Origin: Salipaludibacillus neizhouensis
GTDB taxonomy: Bacteria > Bacillota > Bacilli > Bacillales > Salisediminibacteriaceae
Assembly (NCBI RefSeq): GCF_002886185.1
Contig: NZ_KZ614146.1
Span: 1,472,930 to 1,536,929, forward strand
Length of the DNA: 64,000 bases
Reading direction: 5' to 3'
This document shows, in pieces, positions 9,398-55,035 of this stretch. A program made the translations under genes and the position numbers. The stretch's first letter is position 1. Each line of letters starts with the position of its first letter. The notes under the pieces are model-generated. The model was not told where the DNA came from. It saw only the letters and a program-made list of their open reading frames with translations, and ran no database searches.

Positions 9398-10306
9398 ATG
9401 AAAGCAGTTGTATATTTGAAATACGGCTCACCCGATGTTCTTCAGCTGAAAGAGGTAGAAAAACCTTCACCCAAGGACAATGAAATACTGGTGAAGATAT
9501 ATGCGACTACGGTAACAGCCGGGGATTGGCGCCTTCGAAAGGCCGACCCATTCGCTGCTAGACTTTACAATGGTCTCATAAGGCCAAAAAAAGTAACCAT
9601 ATTAGGGTTTGAGTTAGCTGGGGAAGTTCAAGAAGTAGGTAAATCTGTAGAACGATTTAAGAAAGGTGATCATGTTTTTGCGTTCTGTGGTATTGGCTTT
9701 GGTGCATATGCCGAGTACAAATGTCTGCCTGAAGATGGAGTAGTGGCCATAAAACCGATTAATATGACTTATGAGGAGGCCGCCGCTGTTCCTACTGGCG
9801 GAATAACTGCCTTAAATCTTCTTAGAAAAGGTAAAATCACGAGTGGAATGAAGGTTCTTATTTATGGAGCTTCTGGAAGTGTAGGTACTTATGCGGTCCA
9901 GCTTGCCAAATATTATGGGGCAGATGTAACAGGGGTATGTAGTACCACGAATCTTGAAATGGTCAGAGCTATAGGAGCCGATATGGTCATTGATTATAAG
10001 AAACAGGATTTCACAGAAAATGGAGAAAGGTATGATTTAATCTTTAATGCCGTTGGGAAAAAAATATCAAAAATATCAAAATCAACGTGTAAAAAAGTGC
10101 TTCGCGCAAATGGAAAATATGTAAGTGTAGACATGTCACATAAGCCTCGTGTGGAAGATCTAAACTTCCTCACAGAGCTTATTGAGGCTAGTAAAATCAA
10201 ACCGGTCATAGATAGACGCTATACGTTTGAAGAGATTCCCGAGGCCCATAGCTATGTCGAACAAAAACACAAGAAAGGGAACGTAGTCATAACTGTCAGG
10301 AAATGA
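9398..10306 (+). CDS. NAD(P)-dependent alcohol dehydrogenase/quinone oxidoreductase (MDR, zinc-free)
   Basis: 302 residues of the medium-chain dehydrogenase family. The N-terminal GroES-like part (about 1-120) includes [19 protein letters not shown]; the Rossmann part has [20 protein letters not shown] (nucleotide-binding loop) and [13 protein letters not shown]. The zinc-binding cysteine cluster of classical alcohol dehydrogenases is absent, so quinone or enone reduction with NADPH is more likely. Start follows AAGGAGGAGAAAGC. The TGA stop is supplied by the first three bases of a REP copy. Confidence 0.9.
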
Positions 10307-10335
10307 TGCAGGGGACGGTTCTCTGCTTCATTTTA
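10304..10335 (+). repeat. REP family A copy providing the stop codon
   Basis: TGATGCAG, loop GGGACGGTTCT, CTGCTTCA, TTTT. TGA is the stop of the dehydrogenase gene. Tail to about 10400 matches 6240-6300. Confidence 0.9.
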
Positions 10336-10415
10336 GTTGCGTTAATGAAGCAATAAATCAAGTTTTTGAGATGCAGTAAAATATCGAAAATTGATAAAAG
10401 ATTGATTTCAATGAC

Positions 10416-10529
10416 GAGAGATTTCTTTCGGAAGAACTCTACACCGATGTGACGGCAGAGAAAAAATACCGGATTGACCTTTTAGCAGAGACAAAGTTGA
10501 AAGTTAGTTTAGAGAAAAGAGCATTCTAA
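10416..10529 (+). pseudogene. Remnant of a PD-(D/E)XK (Rpn-like) nuclease
   Basis: A 37-codon frame without a start reads ERFLSEELYTDVTAEKKYRI, DLLAETKLKVSLEKRAF. The order of an EE-L-DVT motif, a K-R-DLL..T-KLK motif resembles the N-terminal catalytic region of Rpn-type transposase-like nucleases of Bacillus. The rest of the gene is absent. The family call is tentative. Confidence 0.4.
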
Positions 10530-10547
10530 TAAAGAATGCTCTTTATT
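10515..10547 (+). terminator. Terminator after the nuclease remnant
   Basis: AAGAGCATTCT / AGAATGCTCTT stem followed by TATTTTT. Confidence 0.85.
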
Positions 10548-10663
10548 TTTGACTATTATTATTGATTTCAATAAAAACATTAACAAATTTGATAAATTTT
10601 TATTGCGAAACGATAAAAAACTTGTTAAAATCAAATTTATAATAAATAAGTGAGGTGTTTTTT

Positions 10664-11155
10664 ATGAAACAGGGTTCAACCATCTTTTTAAAAATAGCTG
10701 TTTTTCTTATTGGAATACCGTTTCTTGCTATATGTATCTTTTTGTTGCCACAAATAGCGATTGAAGCTTTTGGAGAAGCAAAAAATGGTGCAGAGTTGGC
10801 TTATGTGGTATTTGGCATTTTAATTGTTATGTATGTATCGATGATCCCGTTTTGCTATGCATTGTACCAATCATTTAAACTTTTAAGTTATATCGATAAG
10901 AACAAAGCATTCTCGGACTTATCTGTAACAGCACTAAAGCGTATAAAAATCTGTGCCATCACAATAAGTGGCTTGTTTGTGATAGCCCTGCCTCTTATTT
11001 ATATCATTGCGGAGTGGGACGATGCACCGGGTCTTATATTAATTGGAATGGTGATTATTGGTGCTTCATTGGTTATTGCAGTCTTTGCTGCCGTTCTCCA
11101 AAGACTTTTACGGGAAGCTATTCATATAAAATCTGAAAATGATTTAACGGTCTGA
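10664..11155 (+). CDS. DUF2975 membrane protein
   Basis: 163 residues with four membrane helices (about 6-28, 44-68, 102-124, 131-152) and the loop SFKLLSYIDKNKAFSDLSVT, which is the DUF2975 hallmark. Function unknown; such proteins are almost always encoded next to a small YozG-type XRE regulator, as here. ATG 10664 follows GAGGTG at proper spacing. The next gene starts nine bases later, so the pair is an operon. Confidence 0.85.
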   Translation: MKQGSTIFLKIAVFLIGIPFLAICIFLLPQIAIEAFGEAKNGAELAYVVFGILIVMYVSMIPFCYALYQSFKLLSYIDKNKAFSDLSVTALKRIKICAITISGLFVIALPLIYIIAEWDDAPGLILIGMVIIGASLVIAVFAAVLQRLLREAIHIKSENDLTV

Positions 11156-11164
11156 GGTGATAAA

Positions 11165-11386
11165 ATGGCGATTATAATCAATATTGATGTGATGCTTGCT
11201 AAAAGAAAAATGAGTGTAACAAAACTTTCGGAGAGCGTTGGTATAACAATGGCAAACCTTTCTATTTTGAAAAATGGAAAGGCAAAGGCGGTTCGTCTAT
11301 CAACTTTAGAGGCGATTTGTAAGGCGTTGGATTGCCAACCGGGGGATATTTTAGAATACAAAAGTGACGAAGAAACACAAGGGTAA
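11165..11386 (+). CDS. YozG-type XRE regulator
   Basis: 73 residues, a single HTH domain: VMLAKRKMSVTKLSESVGIT, ANLSILKNGKAKAVRLSTLE and CKALDCQPGDILEY. That ending is typical of YozG/YobD-type regulators paired with DUF2975 proteins. GAGGTGATAAA precedes the ATG. It probably regulates the pair and possibly the following isoprenyl transferase gene, which begins 59 bases downstream on the same strand with no terminator between. Confidence 0.9.
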   Translation: MAIIINIDVMLAKRKMSVTKLSESVGITMANLSILKNGKAKAVRLSTLEAICKALDCQPGDILEYKSDEETQG

Positions 11387-11445
11387 TAAAGTAGGGATAG
11401 CGGAGAGTAATTGAAAAAGACAACAATATTTTGAGGGGATAAAAA

Positions 11446-12207
11446 ATGGCAATGAAAATTCCTTTTTTCAATCAAAAAAAACAGGAAGAATCCTTCCATT
11501 ATTCGGAAGAGAGTACACCGGAACATATAGCGATAATTATGGACGGAAACGGACGTTGGGCTCAAAAGCGTGGAAAGCCAAGAGTTGCCGGCCATAAGGA
11601 AGGATTATCTGCTGTCGTAAAAATTGTCAAGGCAGCTGCTAAATGCAAGGTGAAAATTCTGACTCTGTACACATTTTCTACGGAAAACTGGAAACGTCCA
11701 AAGTCCGAGATAGACTTTATATTGAGACTTCCCAAGGAGTTTCTACATTTTTATCTCCCAGATATTATCTCCAATAATGTACGCATTAAGGCAATCGGTA
11801 ATATGGAAGAGCTTCCAGAAAATACACGTGAAGCGATACAGTATGCTATCGACTCTACCAAGGATAATGACGGTCTTCAGCTGAATATTGCGCTCAATTA
11901 TGGAAGCAGGCAGGAGATTGTGATTGGCATGAAAGAAATGTTCGCGGATATTAGAGATTCAAAACTGTCACTTGATAAGGTAGATGAACAGCAGTTTTCA
12001 GGATACCTATATACAGCTGGTATGACAAGTCCCGATCTGCTTATTCGAACAGGCGGGGAAAAACGCCTAAGCAATTTCCTGCTCTGGCAGATGGCCTACA
12101 CGGAGTTCTTGTTTACCGATGTACTGTGGCCGGATTTCTCCGAGAAGGAATTTATACATGCACTTGAAGAATACCGGCACCGAAAGCGAAGGTATGGCGG
12201 AATATAA
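11446..12207 (+). CDS. uppS: Isoprenyl transferase, UppS-like (stand-alone)
   Basis: 253 residues of cis-prenyltransferase. Motifs: IAIIMDGNGRWAQKRGKPRV with the catalytic aspartate (residue 33), TLYTFSTENWKRP, LNIALNYGSRQEI and DLLIRTGGEKRLSNFLLWQM followed by YTEFLFTDVLWPDF. UppS makes undecaprenyl diphosphate, the lipid carrier for peptidoglycan and teichoic acid, from farnesyl diphosphate and IPP. In Bacillus the housekeeping uppS sits between frr and cdsA; this one follows a DUF2975/XRE pair and lacks those neighbours, so it is probably a second paralogue, perhaps with another chain length. GGGGATAAAAA precedes the ATG. Confidence 0.9.
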   Translation: MAMKIPFFNQKKQEESFHYSEESTPEHIAIIMDGNGRWAQKRGKPRVAGHKEGLSAVVKIVKAAAKCKVKILTLYTFSTENWKRPKSEIDFILRLPKEFLHFYLPDIISNNVRIKAIGNMEELPENTREAIQYAIDSTKDNDGLQLNIALNYGSRQEIVIGMKEMFADIRDSKLSLDKVDEQQFSGYLYTAGMTSPDLLIRTGGEKRLSNFLLWQMAYTEFLFTDVLWPDFSEKEFIHALEEYRHRKRRYGGI

Positions 12208-12210
12208 AGA

Positions 12211-12258
12211 GACTGAGTGTTGCTTGTAAACGGGCATTAAAGTAATCAAGTGCATTCT
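12211..12258 (-). pseudogene. Duplicated 5' stub of the rhodanese gene
   Basis: Matches 8448-8495, the first 15 codons of the rhodanese gene, but the ATG has become AAG and the rest is missing, replaced by the end of the isoprenyl transferase gene. It marks one edge of the MarR duplication. Confidence 0.8.
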
Positions 12259-12277
12259 TAGTATAACCTCCTGATTT

Positions 12278-12697
12278 TTATAATGAATTCCAAATTTTTA
12301 TAAGTATTTCCTTCAAAAACTGTTTATCTTTATGGTTTAAGGGCGATAAAACTTCTGATTCCGTTTTCGTCAAAAACTCCCAACATGACTCCAATACACG
12401 AGTACCTTTTTCAGTGACGATAAGACTGTAGGCTCTTCGGTCATTTGGATTTCTAGTTCTCTCAACAAATCCTAGAGTTTCTAGGTGGTCCACATGACTC
12501 ACCATAGTTGTCCGGTCTATATATAGTTTTTGAGAAATATCTTTCTGTGAAGAGTAACGATTTTCCTTGATAAATAAGAGAACTCCATATTGTCTAGCAT
12601 CGATATTAAACGGTATCAGTGTTTCAGCAAACTTATTTTCCATTTGTTGTAGAACTTTACCAAACAGAAATCCATAAGATTGATTTAGTTGATTCAA
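12278..12697 (-). CDS. MarR-family regulator, copy 2
   Basis: 139 residues, differing from copy 1 (8510-8929) at six positions (P/R, I/L, K/R, S/R, T/S, S/N), all outside the recognition helix IDRTTMVSHVDHL except I/L next to it. DNA identity extends from about 12211 to 12785, ending in a truncated REP core. The copy has lost its rhodanese partner and would be transcribed alone, so it may act on the operon of copy 1 and form mixed dimers with it. Confidence 0.92.
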   Translation of the reverse strand: MNQLNQSYGFLFGKVLQQMENKFAETLIPFNIDARQYGVLLFIKENRYSSQKDISQKLYIDRTTMVSHVDHLETLGFVERTRNPNDRRAYSLIVTEKGTRVLESCWEFLTKTESEVLSPLNHKDKQFLKEILIKIWNSL

Positions 12698-12736
12698 ATA
12701 AAACTCACCTCCATAAATAATCAGTCTAATATATAA

Positions 12737-12749
12737 TCAGTATAACTGA
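12737..12749. promoter_or_regulatory. Candidate MarR operator, copy 2
   Basis: TCAG-TATAA-CTGA, the counterpart of the dyad at 8969-8981. Confidence 0.45.
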
Positions 12750-12767
12750 CTATATTTGAAAATACAA

Positions 12768-12787
12768 GTCAAGGGGACGGTTCTTCA
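12768..12787 (+). repeat. Truncated REP family A copy
   Basis: GTCAAGGGGACGGTTCT then unrelated sequence; the match to 8994-9012 ends here and forms the edge of the MarR duplication. Confidence 0.7.
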
Positions 12788-12997
12788 AGGGAAATAAAAG
12801 ATAACCTTTGCTTGTTAAATTAACGCGGGAGCAATAGTGGAACAAACTGTCGCTTCCATTGTTGAACTAACGAACAGTTAGTTTAAGAAGGTATGATATT
12901 ATTTTTGACACTTTGAGTGATTTGAAAGGGGGGAAATTTTTAGTTGAAGATGGTAATGATTGAAACTAATATAAAACTGCTAAGTTGATTTTTCGGC

Positions 12998-13630
12998 TCA
13001 TCTATTTATTGAATTCAATAACTGGAAGAAATATTGAGGGTCCTGAGTCTTATTTAGGTTATACCATGCTTGTAATGTATCGGGTGCAAATACATCTAAT
13101 TTATTCAGTACTTCCATCGTAAATTCCAGAGGTGCTACCCCTGAAGCAGTAACCAAATTCTCACCAGTTACGGAAGGTCTCATCTCATAAAATTCTTCTC
13201 CTTTATAATTAGGACAGACCGTTTTAATATATTCTAAGTCATTGCTTGTGTGTTTTCTAGAATCTAAGTATCCCATATTCGCAAGGGCCTCAGTTGCACC
13301 ACAAATTGCAGCAACAACAGTACCAATCTTTAAAGCTTCACCAATTTTTTTTAAGAAAGGCTGATGAATATCTTCTCTCCAAGTATTCCCTCCAGGCAAG
13401 ACTATAAGGTCTTCACTCTCTAGAGTACATTCATCAAGGGAAATATCTGGTTGTATGCTCAGCCCTCCCATCGTAGTAACACCTTCTTTATTCGTTCCTA
13501 CTGTAACTACTTTTAAAGGAACTACATCTTTTTTGAAATATCTTCCTGAGTTTAATTCAGCAATTAAATACCCATACTCCCAGTCTGACATTGTATTAAA
13601 TACATAAAGATAAACCTTTTTTGTTTGCAT
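12998..13630 (-). CDS. DJ-1/PfpI family protein
   Basis: 210 residues of the class I glutamine amidotransferase-like DJ-1/PfpI fold. Hallmarks are DLIVLPGGNTW, the nucleophile elbow VAAICGATEALANMGYLD with the likely active cysteine, and the following RKHTSN histidine. Relatives include YdeA-like putative peptidases and glyoxalase III-like enzymes; the true activity is unknown. There is a weak ribosome binding site before the ATG. It stands alone in this strand. Confidence 0.85.
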   Translation of the reverse strand: MQTKKVYLYVFNTMSDWEYGYLIAELNSGRYFKKDVVPLKVVTVGTNKEGVTTMGGLSIQPDISLDECTLESEDLIVLPGGNTWREDIHQPFLKKIGEALKIGTVVAAICGATEALANMGYLDSRKHTSNDLEYIKTVCPNYKGEEFYEMRPSVTGENLVTASGVAPLEFTMEVLNKLDVFAPDTLQAWYNLNKTQDPQYFFQLLNSINR

Positions 13631-13729
13631 TCAAGTAACACTCCAATCTATTGATACTGTCTACTATAATATAACTTACCTTACAGATAATGCTAGGGAA
13701 ATTATATTCCTTGATGAAATTTTTGCCAG

Positions 13730-22132: not shown

Positions 22133-22669
22133 ATGATTGTTTCTATTTGTGGGATAAAGGGCAGCTATGCTGAAATAGCGGCACTAGAAATGTTAGGAGA
22201 AGGAATATCTCTATTGTACTGTAATAGTTTTCAAAGTGCTTTGGATTCAGTAAAAAATAAACGGTCAGATTATGCGATTATACCCGTGAAAACATCAAAT
22301 TCGGGATATGTATCAGAGGTGAATGAGTTGCTTTCTTCTGGTAATTGGGGAGTAAAGCAAAAATTTCACCTTCATACTCACCATTGTCTTATGGCTGTAA
22401 AAGGTCAAGAATTAAATAGGATTAAATCAGTTTATTCTCATCCAAAAGCACTACAAGAATGTGAACTATTCCTAAGCAAGTTAAATGTCTCGTTGCGAGA
22501 TTTTTTTAATACGGCTGCTAGTGCAAAGCATGTTGCTGAAAATAATCTATTAAACACGGCAGTTATTGCATCTAAGCAAGCGGCTCAACTTTATCGATTA
22601 GAAATCCTAGCTGAAAACATTGAAAATAACAGTGATGTAACAACTTTTTACACAATAGTTCCTAGATAG
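22133..22669 (+). CDS. Prephenate dehydratase-like protein without ACT domain
   Basis: 178 residues matching the catalytic domain of prephenate dehydratase: GIKGSYAEIAALEML, a lobe with SDYAIIPVKTSNSGYV, VYSHPKALQECELFL, NTAASAKHVAENN and a C-terminal SDVTTFYTIVP. In PheA the last motif is normally TRF with a catalytic threonine; here the arginine position is threonine (TTF). The ACT domain that binds phenylalanine is missing. It may be a divergent, unregulated enzyme or a binding protein. AAAGGAGCAAAAA precedes the ATG. A degenerate REP follows the stop. Confidence 0.75.
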   Translation: MIVSICGIKGSYAEIAALEMLGEGISLLYCNSFQSALDSVKNKRSDYAIIPVKTSNSGYVSEVNELLSSGNWGVKQKFHLHTHHCLMAVKGQELNRIKSVYSHPKALQECELFLSKLNVSLRDFFNTAASAKHVAENNLLNTAVIASKQAAQLYRLEILAENIENNSDVTTFYTIVPR

Positions 22670-22715
22670 TGAAGCAGGCAGGTGAAGTCGGGGAAGGTTC
22701 TCTGTTTCCTTTTAT
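22670..22715 (+). repeat. Degenerate REP family A copy with tail
   Basis: TGAAGCAG at once after the TAG stop, then GGGAAGGTTCTCTGTTTC. The tail (CTGCAAACTCTCGTAAATCG at 22750-22769) matches that at 24108-24127. Confidence 0.6.
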
Positions 22716-23145: not shown

Positions 23146-23172
23146 ATGAAGCAGAGAACCGTCCCCTGCATC
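23146..23172 (-). repeat. REP family A copy, reverse orientation
   Basis: Reads ATGAAGCAG, AGAACCGTCCC, CTGCATC on the plus strand, ahead of the RDD gene. Confidence 0.85.
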
Positions 23173-24037: not shown

Positions 24038-24070
24038 TTGATGTAGGGGACGGTTCTCTGCTTCATTTTG
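24038..24070 (+). repeat. REP family A copy
   Basis: TTGATGTAG, GGGACGGTTCT, CTGCTTCATTTT. The tail through 24130 matches 22715-22785. Confidence 0.8.
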
Positions 24071-27780: not shown

Positions 27781-27859
27781 ATGTTCAACTAGGTCTAGCT
27801 ATGTAGAAAAACCCCTATACTTATAATTTTTTAAAACAGACATGGAGATATATGCAATT

Positions 27860-28756
27860 ATGAATCAAATAAAAAACGCCAGTATAAAATTAAAAGGGCA
27901 ATTAGATCAACAGGAATATAAAGATATAAAAAGTCTTAAGGAGTATTGTGGTAGTAAAGATAAAGTAACAGTAAAGCTAGAGCTTGATTATAAATGGAGC
28001 AAAGCTCTAGATAAAAGTGTGGACAGTAATGAGATCAATGAATTTATGTTCTATGATGAAGGTATGCTTATCGGTTATATTGGAATATGTCAATTTGGTG
28101 GAGAAACGTTGGAAGTTAATGGCGTAGTCCATCCTGAGTTTAGGAGAATGGGAGTCTTCACCAGGTTATTCTCGTTGGTGAAGGATGAGTGGTACAAAAG
28201 AAAATCACAGGATCTGCTTTTACTGAGTGATCAAAACTCACTATCTGGTCTTGAATTTATCAAGAGTACAGGTGCGCATTATGAAAACTCAGAATATGAA
28301 ATGTTTCTTAAAGGTGAACCAACTCTAGGATCAGCTTTAAATAAGTTGATACTTAGAAGAGCACTCAATGAAGACGCAAAAGAAATAGCAAGACAAAATA
28401 ATATATATTTCCAATCTGACTCCGAGGAACTAGAGATTCTCCCCGAGGAAGAAGCGAAGCGCGGAGTAGATATTTATATTGCTGAAATTGATAACGAAAT
28501 CATAGGGAAGGTACAAGTAAGTGTAGATGCTGGTATAGGTGGTATTTACGGGTTAGGAGTCCTTCCAGAATATCGAAGAAAAGGTTATGGTAGAGATATC
28601 TTAATGAAAGCGATAGAGAAGCTGAAAGAAAAGCAAGTACATGAAATAATGCTGCAAGTTTCTGTGGAAAACAAGCATGCCTTAGAACTCTATAAATCCT
28701 GTGGTTTTGAGGAGACTTCTACGATGGATTATTATAAACTAAGCAAAAAACAATGA
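27860..28756 (+). CDS. Tandem GNAT acetyltransferase
   Basis: 298 residues with two GNAT domains. The first (about 1-150) has LEVNGVVHPEFRRMGVFTRL and degenerate features; the second (about 155-295) has IYGLGVLPEYRRKGYGRDIL (R-R-K-G-x-G) and IMLQVSVENKHALELYKSCG. Such tandem proteins, like mycothiol synthase relatives, usually keep activity in one domain. ATG 27860 is chosen because GGAG at 27844 precedes it, while ATG 27842 has no site. The stop TGA is the start of a REP copy. Confidence 0.85.
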   Translation: MNQIKNASIKLKGQLDQQEYKDIKSLKEYCGSKDKVTVKLELDYKWSKALDKSVDSNEINEFMFYDEGMLIGYIGICQFGGETLEVNGVVHPEFRRMGVFTRLFSLVKDEWYKRKSQDLLLLSDQNSLSGLEFIKSTGAHYENSEYEMFLKGEPTLGSALNKLILRRALNEDAKEIARQNNIYFQSDSEELEILPEEEAKRGVDIYIAEIDNEIIGKVQVSVDAGIGGIYGLGVLPEYRRKGYGRDILMKAIEKLKEKQVHEIMLQVSVENKHALELYKSCGFEETSTMDYYKLSKKQ

Positions 28757-28790
28757 TGCAGGGGACGGTTCTCTGCTTCATTTTTATTGT
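28754..28790 (+). repeat. REP family A copy providing the stop codon
   Basis: TGATGCAG, GGGACGGTTCT, CTGCTTCA, TTTTT; TGA is the stop of the tandem GNAT gene. Confidence 0.9.
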
Positions 28791-31690: not shown

Positions 31691-32131
31691 ATGAATGAAA
31701 TAGCATGGGACATACGTGAGGGCAAGCGTTTGAAAAAGATTCAATTAGTCCAAAGTAATCTCGTGACGCTCTTGTTATTCGTTCTATGTGCTTATTTTTT
31801 GAAGAACGGAATGGAGGCTTCCTTCCTTTTTGGAATATGTTGCGCGGTTTTCTGGCTCTATTTAGCAAGTATGGTGTACACCCTAAATACAGGACGAACA
31901 ATCGGTACAAAGACTAGTAGGCGTGTGCAGGACTTTGATAAAGACCATTTTGGCGAGAAGCGCTGGAAGAGAAAGAAAATTATAGAGGTTGTATTCAGTA
32001 ATGTTATAACTGTTGTTTTTACAGTGTTATTGGTTAATTTAGATTTTAATTTTGAAAGATTGGACTTTCAAGTCATTGCTATTCCATTTATCGGGGCTTG
32101 GATTGGCCATAATATAGGAGAGATTATGTGA
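31691..32131 (+). CDS. Hypothetical membrane protein
   Basis: 146 residues with four hydrophobic segments (about 24-38, 43-63, 101-117, 125-143) and a charged central loop (RVQDFDKDHFGEKRWKRKK). Family not recognised. GAAAGTGAGGACAAA precedes the ATG. The stop TGA is formed by the first bases of a REP copy, so the REP hairpin sits immediately at the gene end. Confidence 0.65.
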   Translation: MNEIAWDIREGKRLKKIQLVQSNLVTLLLFVLCAYFLKNGMEASFLFGICCAVFWLYLASMVYTLNTGRTIGTKTSRRVQDFDKDHFGEKRWKRKKIIEVVFSNVITVVFTVLLVNLDFNFERLDFQVIAIPFIGAWIGHNIGEIM

Positions 32132-32160
32132 GGCAGGGGACGGTTCTCTGCTTCACTTTT
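32129..32160 (+). repeat. REP family A copy providing the stop codon
   Basis: TGAGGCAG, GGGACGGTTCT, CTGCTTCA, CTTTTTG. TGA ends the membrane protein gene; G-T pairing keeps the stem. Confidence 0.9.
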
Positions 32161-41631: not shown

Positions 41632-41660
41632 TATGAAGCAGAGAACCGTCCCCTGCATTA
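41632..41660 (-). repeat. REP family A copy, reverse orientation
   Basis: Reads ATGAAGCAG, AGAACCGTCCC, CTGCATTA. In frame it codes MKQRTVPC and is therefore easily mistaken for the start of the methyltransferase. Confidence 0.9.
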
Positions 41661-42367: not shown

Positions 42368-42429
42368 TTAAATGATAGCTTCATGAATAAAACCAGTGAC
42401 TACAACACACAGCGATTGGAGGAATGAAT

Positions 42430-43521
42430 ATGAGTGATCCTATTATCATTGTTGGGGCAGGTTTAAGCGGGATTCGTGTGGCTTCTTTGCTTACTTCAAA
42501 GGGTATCGAGTGTTGCGTACTAGAAGCGAGAGGGCGAATTGGAGGCAGAGTTTTAAGTGAATCTTCCGTGGACAGGCCTGAACTTGGTAAGTTTGACCTG
42601 GGACCAACATGGTTTTGGCCACAGCAGGAGCCCATTATTTCTAGTCTAGTAAATGAACTCGGTTTACAGACATTCGTACAGCATACCGATGGAGATATCC
42701 TTCTCGAGCGATCTCAAAGTCAACCTCTAGAGCGACATAAGCTACCAGAAGGGGCTACCCTAAGTTCGGTTCGGCTCAGTGGTGGAGTTCAGTCCCTTAT
42801 TGATGCCGTAGCGGCAACTCTTCCCCGGGGGACGGTTGAATTAGGAACGAGTGTGACAACAATAAGTATGGATGAAGCAGGAAAGGTAACTCTTGAAGCA
42901 GACCTCGCTGATGGAAAGAAGAAAAGTATACGTGCAAGAGCTGTGATCTTAGCATTACCGCCCCGAATTGTGGCGAGTCGCATAGCCTTCTCCCCACCTC
43001 TCTCAACCCAGCTTATGACGAGTTTGCAAGACAAGCCCACGTGGATGGCGGGACAGGCCAAGGTGATTGCGATATATAATCGTCCTTTTTGGCGAGAAGA
43101 CGGACTATCCGGCCAGGTTATGAGTTGGGCAGGTCCCTTGCAAGAAATTCATGATGCATCACCGGATTCAGGATCCGGGGCACTTTTTGGTTTCTTTGGA
43201 ATATCCGCAAAGATGCGCCAAGAGCTTGGTAAAGAAAGAGTTCTCAAACTAGTTGTCACCCAGTTGACACGACTCTTTGGGCAGTTAGCTGAAAAACCGA
43301 TTTCTCTGTTATACAAGGATTGGTCTATTGACACTGAAACGGCGGTTGACGAAGACTCCATACCGATTAGCGATTTTCCCAACTATGGTCAACCGGCAAA
43401 TTTTAGTTCGGGGAAAAAGAAAATCATTTTTGCCGGGACGGAAACCTCTTCAGAACACGGGGGACATCTTGAAGGAGCACTTCGATCAGCTGAACGTGCA
43501 GTTGCCGAACTGATGGAGTGA
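42430..43521 (+). CDS. Flavin-dependent amine oxidase
   Basis: 363 residues. FAD-binding: IIIVGAGLSGIRVASLLTSK then VLEARGRIGGRVLSE, with FDLGPTWFWPQ (monoamine oxidase signature) and the C-terminal IIFAGTETSSEHGGHLEGAL, the second flavin motif. The family oxidises amines or aromatic amino acids, or works as phytoene-desaturase-like enzymes. ATG 42430 is seven bases after GGAGG; ATG 42424 is too close. Base composition is higher in GC than the flanks. The TGA stop is the start of a REP copy. Confidence 0.88.
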   Translation: MSDPIIIVGAGLSGIRVASLLTSKGIECCVLEARGRIGGRVLSESSVDRPELGKFDLGPTWFWPQQEPIISSLVNELGLQTFVQHTDGDILLERSQSQPLERHKLPEGATLSSVRLSGGVQSLIDAVAATLPRGTVELGTSVTTISMDEAGKVTLEADLADGKKKSIRARAVILALPPRIVASRIAFSPPLSTQLMTSLQDKPTWMAGQAKVIAIYNRPFWREDGLSGQVMSWAGPLQEIHDASPDSGSGALFGFFGISAKMRQELGKERVLKLVVTQLTRLFGQLAEKPISLLYKDWSIDTETAVDEDSIPISDFPNYGQPANFSSGKKKIIFAGTETSSEHGGHLEGALRSAERAVAELME

Positions 43522-43548
43522 AGCAGGGGACGGTTCTCTGCTTCACTT
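43519..43548 (+). repeat. REP family A copy providing the stop codon
   Basis: TGAAGCAG, GGGACGGTTCT, CTGCTTCA: a perfect 8-bp stem. TGA ends the amine oxidase gene. The T tract is short here (CTTA). Confidence 0.9.
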
Positions 43549-44489: not shown

Positions 44490-44556
44490 GGTAGGGAGCA
44501 GACTTCTCTACTTCTTTTTATCGTTGTAAAAATTGGAAGCAGAGAACCGTCCCTTT
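44490..44556. repeat. REP family A pair, left partner degenerate
   Basis: A decayed forward copy (GTAGGGAGCAGACTTCTCTAC) is followed by an intact reverse core GAAGCAGAGAACCGTCCC (44536-44553). Confidence 0.65.
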
Positions 44557-44657
44557 GTTAGTCAGCGTGATGCTTAAAATTATTGACTGTTTTCTGAAAA
44601 TAGCTTATATTTAAGATTGAAATGTATATTCGTATACGATTTCAAAGGAGAAATAGG

Positions 44658-45095
44658 ATGAAAAAAATTATGTTTATACTATTCACTTTTTCTATTGTTA
44701 TCCTTAGTGGATGCTCGGTTCTTGAAGAAGTAAATAGCTCACTGAATTATGCAACTGAATCAACAGATTATATTAATGACCTACAAACATTTGGAGAGGA
44801 AGCATCTTCACTTGTCCAAGACGCTGCCACAGATCCTGATAAAAAAACTGAATTAGAGGGAAAAATAACAGACCTTGAGGCAAGAATCAAGGAATTTAAT
44901 GAAATGAAAGCACCGTCTATTGCTACTGATCTTCATGAAACGGTTGTTGAAAAAAATGATCAAATCCTTGAGGGGATTAATACAGCAAAGGAAAACGGCG
45001 AACTGTCAGTTGAAAAACTAAAGGATACAGAAATTTTTAAAACAATAAATGAAATGACTGACCTAATAGATCAAATAAAGCAGCTTGAATTGTGA
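44658..45095 (+). CDS. DUF6376-like lipoprotein
   Basis: 145 residues. A lipoprotein signal (KKIMFILFTFSIVILSGCSV) has the lipobox L-S-G-C with the lipidated cysteine at 19. The mature part is acidic and helical (NYATESTDYINDLQTFGEEA, ELEGKITDLEARIKEFNEMK), exposed outside the membrane. The layout matches DUF6376 of Bacillus, function unknown. ATG 44658 follows AAAGGAGAAATAGG; the longer frame from 44622 is unsupported. TGA is supplied by a REP. Confidence 0.8.
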   Translation: MKKIMFILFTFSIVILSGCSVLEEVNSSLNYATESTDYINDLQTFGEEASSLVQDAATDPDKKTELEGKITDLEARIKEFNEMKAPSIATDLHETVVEKNDQILEGINTAKENGELSVEKLKDTEIFKTINEMTDLIDQIKQLEL

Positions 45096-45125
45096 AGCAG
45101 GGGACGGTTCTCTGCTTCTTTTTTT
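45093..45125 (+). repeat. REP family A copy providing the stop codon
   Basis: TGAAGCAG, GGGACGGTTCT, CTGCTTC then TTTTTTTG, a full terminator. TGA ends the lipoprotein gene. Confidence 0.92.
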
Positions 45126-48023: not shown

Positions 48024-48626
48024 AAGAAACCCTCCTTATCAGAACTCGTTGTTCACATCTTCTCCGGTTCAAGCAAATGATCAAATGCCTCACCACTCCA
48101 AGAGCCACTTTTTTTGATATTATAAACGTTATTATGTGGATTATAGAAGCTATTATACGAAATGACACCTTTTCTTTTTTTACATTCCTCAAGGTTGAAT
48201 AACCAAAAGGCATTTAAATTTGGTCTATAGAAGTCAGTATTAACAGATCAAATTATGCAAGAAAAATTTTATATTATAATGTAGCTGGACTTGTTCAGGA
48301 AGCTAACTAGTATATAGGGTAATGTGTCGGTACCGGTTAACTGGGCACAGTGTCCTAACACTATTTAATTAGTTTTGGGAGCTGGCAGGGATTTGTCATC
48401 GTGGTATAGAAATCAAGAAGTAGGGATCAGATTTCCTACCTTTTTTAGCATCATAACTAAATAACGAGGTTAGTAAAATTACACATGCATTTTCTGAGCT
48501 ACCATAGAAAGAATTTTAATTGACAGATATTGTTTAGGATGGACAAAAGTTAGTACATATTCTTGTATAGGTTAAATCTATATTTTACATTCGCAGGATA
48601 GATTTTAAAGGATGGGGGTTCAAGAA
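48024..48626. other. Spacer before fbp
   Basis: No gene. A weak hairpin at 48418-48446 (GTAGG/CCTAC, TTTTTT) may be a terminator or attenuator. I see no clear catabolite-repression site. Confidence 0.4.
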
Positions 48627-50567
48627 ATGGATACTAGCTACTTAGATTTACTTGCAAAAATATATGATAAAGAGAGTAAAGTTGTTACCGAAATGATTAA
48701 TCTTGAGGCCATTCTGAATTTACCAAAAGGAACGGAACATTTTGTCAGCGATCTTCACGGAGAATTCCACGCATTCCAGCATGTGCTAAGAAATGGATCG
48801 GGAAATGTTAAGACGAAGATTAATGATCTGCTTAAAGATGAACTTTCTGATGATGAAATAAATGAATTTGCTACACTAGTTTATTATCCAGAAGAGAAAT
48901 TGAAGCTTATAAAAAACGAAATGGAAAATAGTCAATCGCTCAATCAGTGGTACAATAAAACCATTGAACGTATGATAAATTTGGTCCTTTTTGCCTCATC
49001 AAAGTACACTCGAACAAAGGTGAGAAAAGCTTTGCCGAAGCAATTTGATTATATTATTGAAGAGCTGTTGTATAAAACGGATGAATTATCGAACAAGAAA
49101 AATTATTATCATAAAATTGTGGAGCGAATCATTTCACTAAGGCAAGTAGACAAGTTTATTGCTGGCCTGGCTTATACAATTCAGAGGTTAGTTGTCGATC
49201 ATCTTCATGTTGTAGGGGATATCTATGACCGCGGGCCTCAACCAGATAAGATTATGGACACACTTATCAATTATCATTCCGTTGATATTCAATGGGGTAA
49301 CCACGATGTCCTATGGATTGGGGCTTATTCTGGATCAAAGGTATGTTTGGCTAATTTAATTCGAATTTGTGCTAGATACGATAATCTTGACATTATTGAA
49401 GATGTCTATGGAATTAATCTCAGACCTCTTCTGAATCTAGCCGAAAAATACTATGATGATAACCAAGCTTTCCGACCGAAAAACAATGCATCAGAAGAAA
49501 ATATATTTGAAAATGAACAATTGCAAAAAACAAAAATTCACCAAGCAATTACAATGATTCAATTCAAACTAGAAATGCCAATCATTAAGAGAAGACCAGA
49601 TTTCAATATGTCTCGTCGGCTTGTACTTGAGAACATTGATTATGAACAAAAAATTATCACGCTTTATGGGGAAGAATACTCATTAGAAAATGATTGTTTT
49701 GCAACGGTGAATCCAGATCAGCCTGATCAGCTGTTAGAGGAAGAAGAACAAGTCATGAATAAACTGCTGTTTGCTTTCCAGCACTCGGAAAAATTGGCTA
49801 GACATATGAAATTTTTCATGAAGAAAGGCAGTCTTTATTTAAAGTACAATGGGAACTTACTCATTCATGGATGCATACCGTTAAATGAAGATGGTACCAT
49901 GAAGGAAATGGTAATTAAAGATAAGTCGCATTCTGGAAGAGAGTTACTCGATATTTTTGAGTCATATTTACGCTACAGTTTTGCGCATCCTGAACGAACG
50001 GATGATCTTGCAACAGACATGGTGTGGTATTTGTGGACTGGTGAAAACTCATCTCTTTTCGGTAAAAAAGAAATGACAACCTTTGAAAGATATTTTATTA
50101 AAGATAAGGTAGCTCATGTAGAAGAAAAGAACCATTATTACTATCTTCGTGCAGATGAGGAGGTTTGTCGAGAAATTTTAAAGGAATTTGATCTCGATCC
50201 AGATCAGGGGCGTATTATTAATGGGCACACACCTGTCCTAGAAATAAGTGGTGAAAACCCTATAAAAGCAAATGGAAAAATGATTGTCATTGATGGTGGT
50301 TTTTCAAAGGCTTACCAATCTAAAACTGGAATTGCGGGGTACACCCTTTTATATAACTCATTCGGTATGCAGCTTGTTGCCCATAATAAATTCACTTCAA
50401 AAGAAGATGTTCTTAAGAATGGGACAGATGTTTTATCGGTTAAACGATTAGTCGATAGAGAAGTGGAAAGAAAGAAAGTGATGGAAACCAATAATGGCGA
50501 GAAAATATTACAACAGATATCTGACTTAAAACATTTGATGGAATACCGTTACCGGATTGACCAGTGA
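48627..50567 (+). CDS. fbp: Fructose-1,6-bisphosphatase, class III
   Basis: 646 residues, the usual size for Firmicute class III FBPase, a metallophosphatase-fold enzyme of gluconeogenesis (fructose-1,6-bisphosphate to fructose-6-phosphate). Metal motifs: [50 protein letters not shown], and C-terminal INGHTPV and [23 protein letters not shown] 48627 follows GATGGGGGTTCAAGAA; ATG 48612 is also possible. The stop TGA begins a REP copy. Confidence 0.93.
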
Positions 50568-50596
50568 AGCAGGGGACGGTTCTCTGCTTCATTTTA
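50565..50596 (+). repeat. REP family A copy providing the stop codon
   Basis: TGAAGCAG, GGGACGGTTCT, CTGCTTCA, TTTTAA; TGA is the stop of fbp. Confidence 0.92.
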
Positions 50597-50775: not shown

Positions 50776-51405
50776 TTATTCTAAAAATTCGTGGTCGTCA
50801 ATTGTCGTAACAACTGTCATTTTTTCTAACCAACGTGAAGTAGCAGTGGTTGAATTCCAGAAGTACAACGCTCCATCCACAAGGTTAGTTCCTTCCAACG
50901 CTTCTTGCACGGCAGCTATGGTATCTGCGTCTGGACTGTTTTTAATAGTCCCTGTTGCGTAAGGTTCAAACTGTCGTTTTTGCGTAATCACTTCATAGAC
51001 ATTGTCAGGAAACTCGTTACTATCTACACGGTTCAACACTACTTCTGCTACTGCAACCTTGCCTTCGTATACCTGACCACGTGCTTCTGCATGTACAAGG
51101 TGTTCTAGTAGATGACGGTCATCGGTGCTTAAGGTTGCCCTTTGTGTTTCTACTCTGTCAATGCTTACTGATTCCCATATTTGGTTACTAGGCGTATCCG
51201 TATGCAATGAACCAGATACAATGAATGGGTTAAATTTGTCTAGGTTGTCCAATTCAACGCTGTGACGCTTTTTAATATAGTTGATCGTATCCCCTTCGAT
51301 TGCTTGGGACGAATTTTCGTCTTGATAATTGAAACTAGCCATTGTTGAGGTTGCTGCAGTAAATGCTAGGATGCCCGCTAGTAATAATCCTATTAATTTT
51401 TTCAT
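50776..51405 (-). CDS. Cell wall hydrolase, SleB/CwlJ-type (Hydrolase_2)
   Basis: 209 residues. A Sec signal (KKLIGLLLAGILAFTAATST, cleavage near residue 23) is followed by a linker and a C-terminal Hydrolase_2 domain (about 100-209) with LLEHLVHAEARGQVYEGKVA, VAEVVLNRVDSNEFPDNVYE, QFEPYATGTI and GALYFWNSTTATSRWLE. The E of HAEARG is the likely catalytic acid. SleB-like enzymes are lytic transglycosylases of the spore cortex; this one lacks the peptidoglycan-binding domain, so a vegetative or accessory role is possible. Confidence 0.85.
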   Translation of the reverse strand: MKKLIGLLLAGILAFTAATSTMASFNYQDENSSQAIEGDTINYIKKRHSVELDNLDKFNPFIVSGSLHTDTPSNQIWESVSIDRVETQRATLSTDDRHLLEHLVHAEARGQVYEGKVAVAEVVLNRVDSNEFPDNVYEVITQKRQFEPYATGTIKNSPDADTIAAVQEALEGTNLVDGALYFWNSTTATSRWLEKMTVVTTIDDHEFLE

Positions 51406-51433
51406 ATCTCAAATATCCCTTTCTATTAACCTA

Positions 51434-51610
51434 TTAGCCTGTGAATAGCTGTGTCCATGCGTTATCATCGTACCTTACGTCAATAGCCGTAAAGTCATCG
51501 TTTACAATGTTCTTCCTTTGCCCCTGCGAATTTATCTCAGCTTTCACAATTGGCTATTGGAGATTTATTTTCTTGAACTCTACAGTAACGCACGAAACAC
51601 GTAAGGGTAA
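51434..51610 (-). pseudogene. Gene remnant with internal stop
   Basis: A frame without a start reads VTVEFKKINLQ, a TAG, then PIVKAEINSQGQRKNIVNDD, FTAIDVRYDDNAWTQLFTG and TAA. The composition is protein-like, but I do not recognise it. Confidence 0.3.
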
Positions 51611-51801
51611 CCCCTCAAATTATTCCACCTTATCTAGATCTTGTCGGAAAAATAGAAGATTAAGAGATAAATTAAATGTCTAAATGGTCTTAAAAGTAGG
51701 AAGCAGGGATAGGTTTGGAATTTATTATTTAGGTCACAGCACTTAAGAAAGAGGAAGTATTGAAGATGAAAGAGATTGTTGATTGAAGAAGGAAACGGCA
51801 T

Positions 51802-51909
51802 ATGAACTATACAAAAACCGAGAAAGCCGAGCTAAGACGAGAATTTGAATGTGGAGACGAAGAGGAAAAAGATTGTTTCACGTTAATTAAGAAAAGGCGT
51901 GGATACTAA
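51802..51909 (+). CDS. Small acidic/basic protein
   Basis: 35 residues: MNYTKTEKAELRREFECGDE followed by EEKDCFTLIKKRRGY. GAAGGAAACGGCAT precedes the ATG. A decayed copy with matching upstream DNA lies at 47742, which supports a once-mobile or duplicated gene. Function unknown; it could also be a fragment of a longer helical protein. Confidence 0.45.
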   Translation: MNYTKTEKAELRREFECGDEEEKDCFTLIKKRRGY

Positions 51910-52035
51910 AATCATTGCTGAATCTGTTGAATTGTTTGAGGGAGAGATAAATATAATAGAGAAGTAGAGTAGTTAACATATTGACTTGGAGGTAATCTAT
52001 TATTTTTTCGAATTGGAGGTGTGTGAATCTTATAT

Positions 52036-52074
52036 ATCAAAACCGACCTTTCTAAGTAGGAAGGTCGGTTTTGA
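52036..52074. terminator. Bidirectional terminator
   Basis: AAAACCGACCTTTC / GGAAGGTCGGTTTT, 14-bp stem, with T residues on the plus side and A residues before it; it can serve both the plus-strand small gene and the minus-strand NmrA gene. Confidence 0.85.
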
Positions 52075-52097
52075 AATACGTTAATTATGCTGATTTT

Positions 52098-52961
52098 TTA
52101 AGAAAGACCTTTAACGATTTGAGGTAACCCCTCACTAAGTGGTGATGCTGGTCGCCCAAGAAGTTTTTCGAAATCGTTGCTTTCAATTGATAATGAACCT
52201 GCACGAATGCTTTTCTGGATGTCAACAAGAAAAGGTAGAAGGAAATCCGGCACGCCAGCATCTTTCATAATGTCCGCGTAAGCAGTATCACTAACTTGCT
52301 GTACTGGTACTTCTTTACCCAAAACAGTACCGAGTGCAGAAGCGAATTCTTCCTGAGTTAATAACTTACCGGATAGCTCGTAGGTTGTATTTTCGTGCCC
52401 GGTTCCAGTGAGTACCGTTGCCGCAGCTTCTGCATAATCTTGTTGTAACGCCCAGCCTACTTTTCCACTTCCGGCTGATGTCACCCATGGAGCTCCAGCT
52501 AGTACTCCTTGAATACTTGAGGTTTCATTCTCCATGTACCAGTTATTGCGTAAGAATGAATAAGGAATGCCTGTTTTTATAATAGTTTCTTCAGTGACTT
52601 TATGCGTGGATGCAAGGAAGTTTTCACTTTCATTTGCATTTACTATGCTAGTATAAGCAATAAAATTAACGCCGACACGCTCTGCAGCAGCTACCGCATT
52701 AGCATGTTGCTTCGTTCTGGTTTCATTTTCCCCATCTGTAGAAATAATTAAAAGCCTGTCAATACCTGAAAAAGAAGAATCAAGTGTTTCAGGGTGGTCA
52801 AAGTCTCCTTGACGAACTTCTACTCCACGAGCTTGTAATCCTTCAGCTTTTTCCGGGTTCCGAACACTTACTGCAAGTTGGTCCACTGGGACAGTTTTCA
52901 ATAAAGTTTCTACAACTTTCGTGCCTAATTTCCCAGTTGCTCCTGTTACTAGCATTTTCAT
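52098..52961 (-). CDS. NmrA/YtfG-like NAD(P)H quinone oxidoreductase
   Basis: 287 residues. MKMLVTGATGKLGTKVVETL is the cofactor loop (G-x-x-G-x-x-G); ISTDGENETRTKQHANAVAA and FLRNNWYMENETSSIQGVLA are typical of QOR2 (YtfG)-type quinone reductases. It should reduce quinones with NADPH in the cytoplasm. ATG 52961 follows TTGGAGGAATAACAAA. The Rrf2 gene is divergent, with tandem 19-bp repeats between, so Rrf2 control in response to electrophiles or disulfide stress is likely, as for the YwnA/HypR group. Confidence 0.88.
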   Translation of the reverse strand: MKMLVTGATGKLGTKVVETLLKTVPVDQLAVSVRNPEKAEGLQARGVEVRQGDFDHPETLDSSFSGIDRLLIISTDGENETRTKQHANAVAAAERVGVNFIAYTSIVNANESENFLASTHKVTEETIIKTGIPYSFLRNNWYMENETSSIQGVLAGAPWVTSAGSGKVGWALQQDYAEAAATVLTGTGHENTTYELSGKLLTQEEFASALGTVLGKEVPVQQVSDTAYADIMKDAGVPDFLLPFLVDIQKSIRAGSLSIESNDFEKLLGRPASPLSEGLPQIVKGLS

Positions 52962-53004
52962 TTTGTTATTCCTCCAATTTATGTAATATGATATTAAGTA
53001 TTTA

Positions 53005-53042
53005 ACCTGTATCCATTTAAGATACCTGTATTCATAGTAGAT
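53005..53042. promoter_or_regulatory. Tandem 19-bp direct repeats, likely Rrf2 operator
   Basis: ACCTGTATCCATTTAAGAT (53005-53023) is followed without gap by ACCTGTATTCATAGTAGAT (53024-53042), 16 of 19 identical. They lie in the shared region of the Rrf2 and NmrA genes. Confidence 0.6.
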
Positions 53043-53153
53043 ACTCATGAGCGTTTTGTCAATGAGTTATAATAAACCTTTATTCATTTTATGGATTTTA
53101 AGGTATAATACGTTGTATTGAAAATTGATACAAAATTAGGTAGGTGAATGAAT

Positions 53154-53594
53154 ATGTCCATCAGTAGCCGTTTTACAGTTGGCGTTCATATATTAGCTCT
53201 TATTGAACTTAATAAAGATGGGATCAGTTCATCTGAATTTTTAGCAGGAAGTATAAACACGAACCCAAGCTTGGTAAGAAAAATTATCGGAATGCTGAAA
53301 AAAGTGGAAATTGTGGAAGTTCGCCCTGGGGTAGCAGGGGGGAAACTTGCAAAGGATCCATCTAATATAACATTATTTGATGTTTACAAGGCAGTCGATG
53401 TGGTGCAGGAAGAAGAATTGTTTACAGTGCATGAAAATACACATCCTGATTGTATTGTAGGAAAGAATATTCAAAACTCAATTGCTCCTGTATTATCAGC
53501 AGCACAATTAGCTATGGAACAGGTACTCGGAAGTGTAACCATTGCGGATGTTGTAAAGGATATAGTTGAAAAAGAAACGTATAAAATACAGTAA
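53154..53594 (+). CDS. Rrf2-family regulator (YwnA-like)
   Basis: 146 residues. The winged-helix start SISSRFTVGVHILALIELNK, then SSEFLAGSINTNPSLVRKII and VRPGVAGGKLAKDPSNITLF are the Rrf2 pattern. A single cysteine (PDCIVGKN) is present, not the three-Cys iron-sulfur cluster of IscR, so thiol-based redox sensing is plausible. ATG 53154 fits the AGGTAGGTG site. It is divergent from the NmrA-like oxidoreductase, its probable target. Confidence 0.88.
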   Translation: MSISSRFTVGVHILALIELNKDGISSSEFLAGSINTNPSLVRKIIGMLKKVEIVEVRPGVAGGKLAKDPSNITLFDVYKAVDVVQEEELFTVHENTHPDCIVGKNIQNSIAPVLSAAQLAMEQVLGSVTIADVVKDIVEKETYKIQ

Positions 53595-53656
53595 TTTGAT
53601 CATTCATTCAGACATTCTTGAAGTAGGAATGTCTTTTTTTACAAGGTAAGAAAGTA

Positions 53657-53776
53657 TAAGATGATGGCTATCTTTACGCCACACGCATCAAGGGAGGGGC
53701 GTCCTTGATGCTTAATGATGGAAGCGAAAGATCACGCTGTATTTAACAAAAGACGCTTTGCGTTTTTCTTAAGCTT
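53657..53776 (+). repeat. Repeat family E, copy 1 (with 62967-63079)
   Basis: Two inner hairpins: GCATCAAGG/CCTTGATGC and GACGC/GCGTTTTTC. Shared words with the second copy are GCTATCTTTACGCCACA, AAAGATCACGCTGTATTTAA and TTTTTCTTAAG. Confidence 0.75.
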
Positions 53777-54026
53777 TTTTATCATTAACCATAAAGGTTA
53801 CATATGCTGCACGTTATAAATAATTGTTGGTTTGTAAGAATTCGCGAGATCCTGCAGTGACTCTTTGTTACAATGAAAGGTGTTTTCGTAGTTCCACATA
53901 GTTATTTTAACGATAATTGTTCTAAATTATCGCTTTATGCAGGATAATAATAATAATTGTTGAAAGTAATTAAATTAGGAACTTAGATTCACTTATTTTG
54001 AAATAATTTATAAAGGGGTGTAAACG

Positions 54027-55004
54027 ATGAATGAAATTTTAACAAATGAACTTAGAGATCAATACTTAAAAACACTTTCGCCGGAACAAACAGATTTCAT
54101 TCGAAATCATGTGAGACGTGGGAAAAAGACGATTTTTGCGAATTCTATGGCAAAGGATAAAGGAATTGTTCTTCCAGAAGATTTAAACAGCGAGGAAATT
54201 GAGCATTTATTAGAAGACTGGGTGTTAATTGATTACATTGATAATGGTTTTGTGAACCCAGATACCCCATGCGAATGTGGAAGGCCACTTCGATATCAAT
54301 ATATTGTAAAACACAACAAATCAAACGAACAGAGGACGTTTGGAATCAATCACTTTGAAGAACATACAGGGTTACCACCAAACATCGTTAAACTTATTAA
54401 AAGCGGTTTCCAGACAATTGAATACGAAATGGATGAGTTATTAATTAAAATTTTTAACAATTGGAATATAGAAGAGGAAGTACCCTTTACTCTGGATGAA
54501 GATTATATTTACCCAATAGATATGCAAAAACATTTGGATGCGAATGTCCCCTTATTGGATCGGCAAATAAAAAGAGTGAAACAACAAATCTTGTCATTAA
54601 GTTCAGGACCAAAAAGAGAGGTTACGGATAGAGAATTCGAAGCAAAGGATACTCAAAAAATTAGCCCATTTTATGCAACAGAAACTCAAGAACCAGATCC
54701 TATTAACTTGTTTAGCGAAGAGGAAATGCCTTTACCTAAGAAAGAGAATGACTTGAAGCCGTATGCGCTTGCAAGTGAGTATAGAGACGCGGTGTTCGGA
54801 TACTTAACGGAAGGGGTTACTAGTACTAGAATAATCTGTGAATTATTAATGAAGAACTATCATGCTCCTTCTGAGAGATATTACTCAGGAAGACCTAAAA
54901 TATATGTTAGCGTATGTTTTTACTTGGATTTATTAGTAAGTAAAGAGAAGGCATTACATATAGGCTCTCTTAATCTCGACGACCGCTATTATAAACTAAC
55001 GTGA
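54027..55004 (+). CDS. DUF3895 domain protein
   Basis: 325 residues, cytoplasmic. An N-terminal helical region, then a small zinc-like site NPDTPCECGRPLRYQYIVKH (C-x-C), FGINHFEEHTGLPPNIVKLI, an acidic low-complexity linker (about 200-240) and a C-terminal domain with VTSTRIICELLMKNYHAPSE and IYVSVCFYLDLLV. This layout matches Bacillus DUF3895 proteins, whose function is unknown. AAGGGGTGTAAACG precedes the ATG. The TGA stop is the start of a REP copy whose stem shows a matching change. Confidence 0.7.
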   Translation: MNEILTNELRDQYLKTLSPEQTDFIRNHVRRGKKTIFANSMAKDKGIVLPEDLNSEEIEHLLEDWVLIDYIDNGFVNPDTPCECGRPLRYQYIVKHNKSNEQRTFGINHFEEHTGLPPNIVKLIKSGFQTIEYEMDELLIKIFNNWNIEEEVPFTLDEDYIYPIDMQKHLDANVPLLDRQIKRVKQQILSLSSGPKREVTDREFEAKDTQKISPFYATETQEPDPINLFSEEEMPLPKKENDLKPYALASEYRDAVFGYLTEGVTSTRIICELLMKNYHAPSERYYSGRPKIYVSVCFYLDLLVSKEKALHIGSLNLDDRYYKLT

Positions 55005-55035
55005 TGCAGGGGACGGTTCTCCGCATCATTTTTTT
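55002..55035 (+). repeat. REP family A copy providing the stop codon, covarying stem
   Basis: TGATGCAG, GGGACGGTTCT, CCGCATCA, then seven T. TGATGC pairs with GCATCA where other copies have TGAAGC with GCTTCA. TGA ends the DUF3895 gene. Confidence 0.9.

Follow-up and report, generated by a model that had tools for sequence, protein, structure and literature searches.

Stop codons likely donated to genes by a REP-like palindrome family in Salipaludibacillus neizhouensis and related genomes

Results

The window analysed here is a stretch of 64,000 nt (36% G+C) from the 5.5 Mb genome of Salipaludibacillus neizhouensis (contig NZ_KZ614146.1, positions 1,472,930 to 1,536,929), which is G000 among the genomes compared below and is called the own genome. 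Open reading frames (ORFs) were called mechanically. Seven genes in the window share a short palindromic repeat that resembles repetitive extragenic palindromes (REPs), and in all seven the in-frame TGA stop codon is the first triplet of the repeat, exactly as a first-pass annotation of the same DNA had reported. These elements, all on the plus strand, occupy 10304..10330 (end of a Zn-dehydrogenase ORF, 9398-10306), 28754..28780 (GNAT, 27842-28756), 32129..32155 (a 146-aa ORF, 31691-32131), 43519..43545 (amine oxidase, 42424-43521), 45093..45119 (DUF6376, 44622-45095), 50565..50591 (FBPase_2, 48612-50567) and 55002..55028 (DUF3895, 54027-55004). The genes are unrelated to one another. Pfam backs five of the names first given to them (dehydrogenase, GNAT, amine oxidase, fbp as FBPase_2, and DUF3895); the supposed lipoprotein is DUF6376, and the supposed membrane protein (146 aa) has no family match in Pfam.

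The element is an imperfect hairpin built around a conserved centre, GGGACGGTTCT (hereafter the tag), with a stem sequence that varies between host species. In the window's subfamily the 5' arm starts with TGANGCAG, followed by the tag and a 3' arm. The arm first described, TGAWGCAG, fits the stop-sharing sites except 32129, which reads TGAGGCAG, and variant 3' arms are seen at 45093 and 55002. Two further sites had been placed 0-2 bases past a native stop. One stands: at 6206..6232 (+) the TAA of ORF 5013-6203 is followed by two bases and then TGAGGCAG. The other, 22670..22708 (+), directly past the TAG of ORF 22133-22669, holds only a degenerate copy, with the tag reading GGGAAGGTTCT at 22691 and TGAAGCAG 21 nt upstream of it. 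Predicted folding energies are -11.9 to -15.7 kcal/mol for eight of these nine sites and -0.9 kcal/mol for 22670. The proposed 8-bp stem with an 11-base loop gives way to a longer structure, as the "loop" is itself predicted to form four more pairs, with a CGG triloop in seven of the nine sites. A scan of the window against Rfam gave no matches at gathering thresholds.

The tag has 151 exact matches in the genome and its reversed pattern none, so its abundance is not due to chance. Of these copies, 141 were examined, within a total of 861 kb of sequence. By the criterion used, 99 stand alone and 42 are members of inverted pairs; 128 fall outside called ORFs, and tags are clustered in the genome.

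Copies are drawn to gene ends. In the own genome, 49 of the 141 tags have an ORF stop 0-20 nt upstream, compared with 3.0% of random intergenic places; the same measure gives 19-33% against 2.5-4.8% in seven other genomes. The tag-to-stop distances asked for at first pass thus show, when set against random intergenic places, a pile-up 0-20 nt past stops, and the general pull of copies toward gene 3' ends is real. Counting positions from the tag, a called stop lies exactly at -8 in 10 of 141 cases (8 TGA and 2 TAA, seven of the TGA being those of the window's seven genes), where about 0.2 would be expected if the intergenic null is spread evenly. Among the 15 copies with a TGANGCAG arm, seven serve as stops, three have another stop 13-18 nt upstream, and the remaining five have their nearest same-strand ORF stop at least 325 nt away.

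Where the stop lies matches each species' own arm. The own genome uses TGA at -8 and also TAG at -2, G010 uses TAA at -5, G026 TGA at -9, G007 TAA or TGA at -8, and G014 TGA or TAA at -7. In G022 and G016 the arm consensus contains no stop, and stops lie mostly just upstream of the element. We compared these uses with "unlinked" copies, which lack any ORF stop on their own strand within 60 nt; in flanking sequence the baseline frequency of a stop triplet is 5-7%. The donated position carries a stop triplet in 60 of 94 unlinked copies in G010 (9 uses), 11 of 16 in G026 (4 uses), 16 of 39 in G007 (8 uses) and 6 of 21 in G014 (5 uses); in the own genome the figures are 13 of 83 at -8 (10 uses) and 11 of 83 at -2 (7 uses). 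Overall, 13-69% of unlinked copies have a stop triplet at the arm position, with a large excess in G010 and G026. Because the triplet is present in copies that have no gene end close by, and because its place tracks the species' arm, the element brings the stop with it. Weighing these points, we take the donated stop to be the element's own and not part of a pre-existing target; precise insertion at TGA-like targets, one of two readings first offered, is unnecessary for the TGA itself, which sits in the 5' arm even of copies with no ORF stop nearby.

The stems differ between species (GGCAAATG...CGTTTGCC in G010, TGAAACA...TGTTTCA in G026), and in each of the eight genomes compared, the average pairing of 5' arms is better when the 3' arms come from the same species than when they come from another.

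The first-pass annotation likened the element to repeats near transposases of the REP-associated tyrosine transposase (RAYT) type, and at the genome level this hunch holds. Y1_Tnp has seven matches in the own genome, and some of these are fragments of a single gene. A broken Y1 gene of RAYT/TIRYT-like character at C2:~998.6-999.4 kb is split into two reading-frame pieces and has inverted family copies at both ends. Its first piece matches Y1_Tnp at 30.6 bits; HTH_psq and HTH_23 are found in the second piece below cut-off only, and REP_Tyr_transpos is below cut-off in both. It carries the motifs NHVH and YIHQNP, with FQ at the likely place as judged by eye. Relatives scoring above 200 bits occur in 7 of 30 related genomes (G005, G009, G010, G014, G016, G022 and G026), with open frames of 265-311 aa in these seven close relatives. 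A GGGACGG repeat lies just past the stop of most of these genes: in seven of eight (own gene included) it is on the gene strand and starts 11-26 nt past the stop-codon start, with the exact tag in five, and in the exception, G005, it lies 141 nt away. Tag numbers exceed 100 in six of the seven relatives with the transposase. When the genomes that have 40 tags or more are compared with those that have the transposase, the overlap is 7/9 of the former and 7/8 of the latter (Fisher p = 1e-4, with a cut-off picked post hoc and species that are not independent).

Three further loci concern this enzyme and its surroundings. The nearest named relative in one scan is from Aquibacillus halophilus (66% identity), where GGGACGG repeats with other arms lie ~600-850 nt downstream of the transposase match (L227, 3160-3426). 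A close transposase relative on C14 of G009 (L102) adjoins repeats that have GGGACGG and lack the TTCT part. A second Y1 transposase in G010 (L117, C1:4221457-4222005) has GGGACAG repeats around it, one of which, GGGGACAG, fits GGGGWSAS.

C-termini were compared with those of orthologues gene by gene. The 10304 gene ends two residues before its G005 orthologue; the 28754 gene ends one residue beyond those of G002 and G003 and level with a distant G022 relative; the 43519 gene is shorter than in G005 (by five residues) and G011 (by about three); the 45093 gene ends at the same position in two of three relatives; and the FBPase (50565) ends two residues beyond three relatives. The 55002 gene differs too, but its G007 orthologue itself has a repeat-encoded tail. 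The 32129 gene had no orthologue in 18 relatives at 1e-10. In two other genes, the protein runs on into the element: the tails ...RGRFSASF (C1:1583492) and ...KGRFSAS (C2:1001065) are translated element, and the G007 orthologues have other residues or an earlier end. Taking the window genes with an orthologue, one gene using TAG at -2 (unchanged) and these two tailed genes as a set of nine stop-donating or read-through genes, C-terminus length had changed in seven, compared with 15 of 46 control pairs (p = 0.022), not all of which are different genes. The orthologue comparison proposed at first pass thus finds lengths that often differ at stop-donating genes, in a comparison that is small and fragile. 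Eight genes with a stop 11-18 nt before the tag were control-like (three changed, five unchanged). To judge by these sequences, two modes seem to occur, one in which a copy lands behind a native stop and one in which it takes over the stop. Repeats with other stems stand at the same gene ends in other species (the FBPase, 1087728 and 55002 genes in G007; the 10304 and C2_850861 genes in G005), which suggests independent hits.

An insertion enzyme that favours stop-like targets would also place copies behind native stops, in which case the stop would be the host's. The strong pile-up 0-20 nt past stops in every genome examined fits such targeting, as do the five unchanged C-termini just described and G022, whose arm consensus has no stop and in which a stop directly adjoins the element (seven cases at d = 12 and four at d = 13). 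However, a stop at the donated position is also found in copies with no ORF stop close by, its place follows the species' arm, and two genes run into the element. As a general explanation we therefore regard target-directed insertion as unlikely, though it may account for the abutting class and for the general pile-up.

The first pass also read the element as a complete intrinsic terminator with a T tract, and as a possible stop/terminator cassette under selection, so that gene-end copies would be kept for ending translation and transcription together. The predicted hairpin energies favour this idea. A terminator scan, covering bases 1-60000 of the 64,000, flagged five of the seven stop-sharing sites (10308, 28758, 32128, 45094 and, weakly, 55009) and five further family sites, one of them degenerate. 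The same scan left 43519, which lacks a T tract, and 50565 unflagged. T-richness after the 3' arm did not differ significantly between gene-end and other single copies in the own genome (p = 0.11), and among seven other genomes (2-15 gene-end copies each) only G005 reached p = 0.03. With T-richness not significantly higher at gene ends in seven of eight genomes, several of the samples being small, the selected cassette is unsupported and we consider it quite improbable. By eye, it is in the window's subfamily that CTGCTTCA is most often followed by a T run, and any terminator activity of the copies with a T tract is likely a side effect. Coincidence of ORF calling in AT-rich DNA can practically be dismissed: the ORFs were indeed called mechanically, but all but one of the seven proteins have a Pfam family match, and the ten exact -8 stops against a near-zero expectation refute it.

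Separately from this family, a 48-nt palindrome of different sequence at 882-929 of the window is followed by a T run; it is a strong terminator-like site and perhaps belongs to another repeat family.

The window holds further family copies. Two terminator-like elements lie away from called ORF ends, at 4855..4881 (+, TGAGGCAG arm) and 24039..24065 (+, TGATGTAG arm); 6206 and, at 22689, the degenerate copy are terminator-like too. Four inverted pairs resemble REPINs (REP doublets forming hairpins): 57589..57658, between the 3' ends of ORF 56070-57581 (+) and ORF 57659-58243 (-); 59493..59560; 60473..60531, with a tag 13 nt past the stop-codon start of ORF 59628-60470; and 61465..61523, 3' of ORF 60624-61457. 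Single copies, given by their tags, are at 3415..3425 (+), 9000..9010 (+), 23155..23165 (-, TGATGCAG arm, away from same-strand ORF ends), 41642..41652 (-, TAATGCAG arm), 44543..44553 (-) and 55774..55784 (-), and a tag at 12774..12784 (+) has no recognisable 3' arm.

On a larger scale, three regions of the own genome (C1:1.04-1.40 Mb, C1:1.435-1.537 Mb and C2:0.80-0.945 Mb) contain regional subfamilies of single copies whose tails resemble one another and which share an orientation (29 minus/3 plus, 16 plus/4 minus and 19 plus/4 minus, respectively), and GC skew is positive in all three. Tail likeness of single copies within 150 kb exceeds chance in the own genome (reached by 0 of 2000 permutations). 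Elsewhere it is weak in G022 (29/1000) and absent in G010 (199/1000) and G007 (379/1000), so we do not claim local spread as general. In G010, C1:1.13-1.49 Mb has 33 minus and 5 plus copies with positive skew, and 4.13-4.36 Mb has 39 plus and 15 minus with weakly negative skew; orientation there follows GC skew, the pattern expected from a lagging-strand bias. As a general rule, such a bias was rejected: G010 and the own C1 1.04-1.40 Mb region fit one orientation rule, but the own C1 1.435-1.537 Mb and C2 0.80-0.945 Mb regions contradict it.

Discussion

We think it likely that these elements are a mobile family of REP-like palindromes, spread by a Y1 (HUH) transposase of RAYT/TIRYT type, whose hairpin arm donates stop codons to the genes it reaches. 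This reading brings together the anatomy of the element, repeats that stand beside transposase genes, stop use that tracks the species' arm, two tails encoded by the element, and frequent C-terminal differences from orthologues. Under it, insertion would have placed the copies and this transposase would move them. If a copy inserts in the correct frame at a gene's 3' end, or slightly within it, the TGA of its arm would become the stop; in other cases the gene would end on a stop immediately preceding the element or, in rare instances, be read through to give an element-encoded tail. Purifying selection would presumably remove insertions deeper inside genes.

Several observations weigh against this account. 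Among unlinked copies of the own genome, the arm stop exceeds background by no more than a modest margin (16% and 13% vs 6.5%), and the arm consensus of G005 offers a TGA, yet a single stop at -9 was seen there. Inverted copies on both sides within ~300 nt of the transposase were seen only in the own genome, where the gene is broken, and in G026. G009 has the transposase but two exact tags, whereas G007 (129 tags) and G008 (49) have no match above 200 bits. Within species, shuffling the arms leaves pairing about as good as in the true pairs, with G005 as the exception, and matching arm change is therefore demonstrated between species only and not between copies. The C-terminus test is fragile: leaving out 55002 gives 6/8 (p = 0.045), counting 28754 as unchanged gives 6/9 (p = 0.071), and both changes together give 5/8 (p = 0.13). 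Its differences were counted by hand, and the control pairs have at least 55% identity, a cut that some orthologues of the nine fall below. Finally, a flank-pair search within the fetched stretches of eight genomes gave no clean empty site, which would have been direct evidence of insertion. That search found 36 flank pairs at other places; among 32 of them, the tagless ones (in G010, G022 and G026) resembled, by appearance, other repeat copies or overlapping matches.

A bolder version of the same idea is a transposon system common across this bacterial order, in which a TIRYT-like enzyme recognises the invariant hairpin centre while the stem drifts freely. Insertion would be steered to gene 3' ends, so that the arm repeatedly becomes the stop and each species' stop at several genes is set by a mobile element, and spread would be mainly to nearby sites. 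We offer this as a speculation whose chances we rate as low.

The family has clear counterparts among known systems. It has the features of REPs and REPINs, being a many-copy short extragenic palindrome, single or in inverted pairs, with a Y1 gene beside the repeat. As in REPINs and BIMEs (bacterial interspersed mosaic elements), two inverted copies can be joined by a short spacer; unlike them, 99 of the 141 examined copies are single. A close parallel is with the GTAG REPs described by Di Nocera and colleagues (2013, PMC3733652), whose termini often supply a TAG stop to flanking ORFs; the paper also shows, for two genomes, REPs within 20 bp of gene 3' ends. Both families consist of short palindromes, single or as dimers, near gene 3' ends, and both donate stops. 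Here, in contrast, a conserved motif sits at the hairpin centre, and the donated stop is TGA, TAA or TAG depending on the species. None of the 15 TGANGCAG copies, the ones tabulated for this feature, has a GT[AG]G foot, most having GTGA. The CGTC REPs of the same paper offer a partial likeness, as the reverse complement AGAACCGTCCC contains CGTC; there, however, CGTC is an unpaired end tag and not central, and those REPs reportedly lack an association with transposase genes.

The class of the transposase is less clear-cut. TIRYT transposases are described with flanking inverted repeats, some sharing GGGGWSAS (PMC3733652), and REPs accumulate near rayt genes in some genomes (Nunvar and colleagues, PMC2817692). 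In a 2018 survey (PMC6006769), TnpAY1 subclass 2.1 equals RAYT group 1 and is linked to TIRYT, and the survey found no REP-like sequences beside it; subclass 2.6 (RAYT group 5) genes have at their flanks atypical secondary structures that are found repeatedly in the genome. Our enzyme resembles TIRYT/TIRtron and subclass 2.1 transposases in being a Y1 transposase with NHVH, FQ and a C-terminal helix-turn-helix (here weakly scored); it also has a flanking repeat, GGGGACGG, one base off GGGGWSAS, and its repeats are likewise dispersed singly or as dimers. Unlike subclass 2.1 as described there, the genes here adjoin hairpin repeats, whose copy number is above 100 in most of these genomes, and the Y motif is YIHQNP where the survey gives YIELNP or Y[IV]HLNP. 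The subclass 2.6 motifs, HUH NH[LIV]H and Y motif YIH[QN]NP, do agree with NHVH and YIHQNP, but the members described are mostly from Bacteroidetes, with a median of 179 aa and the motif WQ, whereas the proteins here have FQ, a helix-turn-helix end and 265-311 aa. Judged on these motifs, helix-turn-helix, FQ and length point to 2.1 and the Y motif to 2.6. A literature search on GGGACGGTTC returned no paper recognisable by its title as being about the repeat, and separate searches gave nothing on REPIN/RAYT groups in Firmicutes and, with a strict query, nothing on REPs of Bacillaceae; the word Firmicutes has no occurrence in the main texts of the three papers.

Stop donation by REPs is already known from the GTAG REPs described in 2013, and the present family is a further variety of the same phenomenon. 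What the present analysis adds is a family in a Bacillaceae-like group, with species-specific stems around one centre and a stop position that tracks the arm across species. If the transposase belongs to subclass 2.1, high-copy hairpin repeats would be tied to a class that the 2018 survey lists without them. More broadly, stems come with a stop triplet particular to the species, or with none at all, which makes it possible to distinguish stops supplied by the element from those present beforehand; the family thus allows the effect of mobile palindromes on gene ends to be tested across several species.

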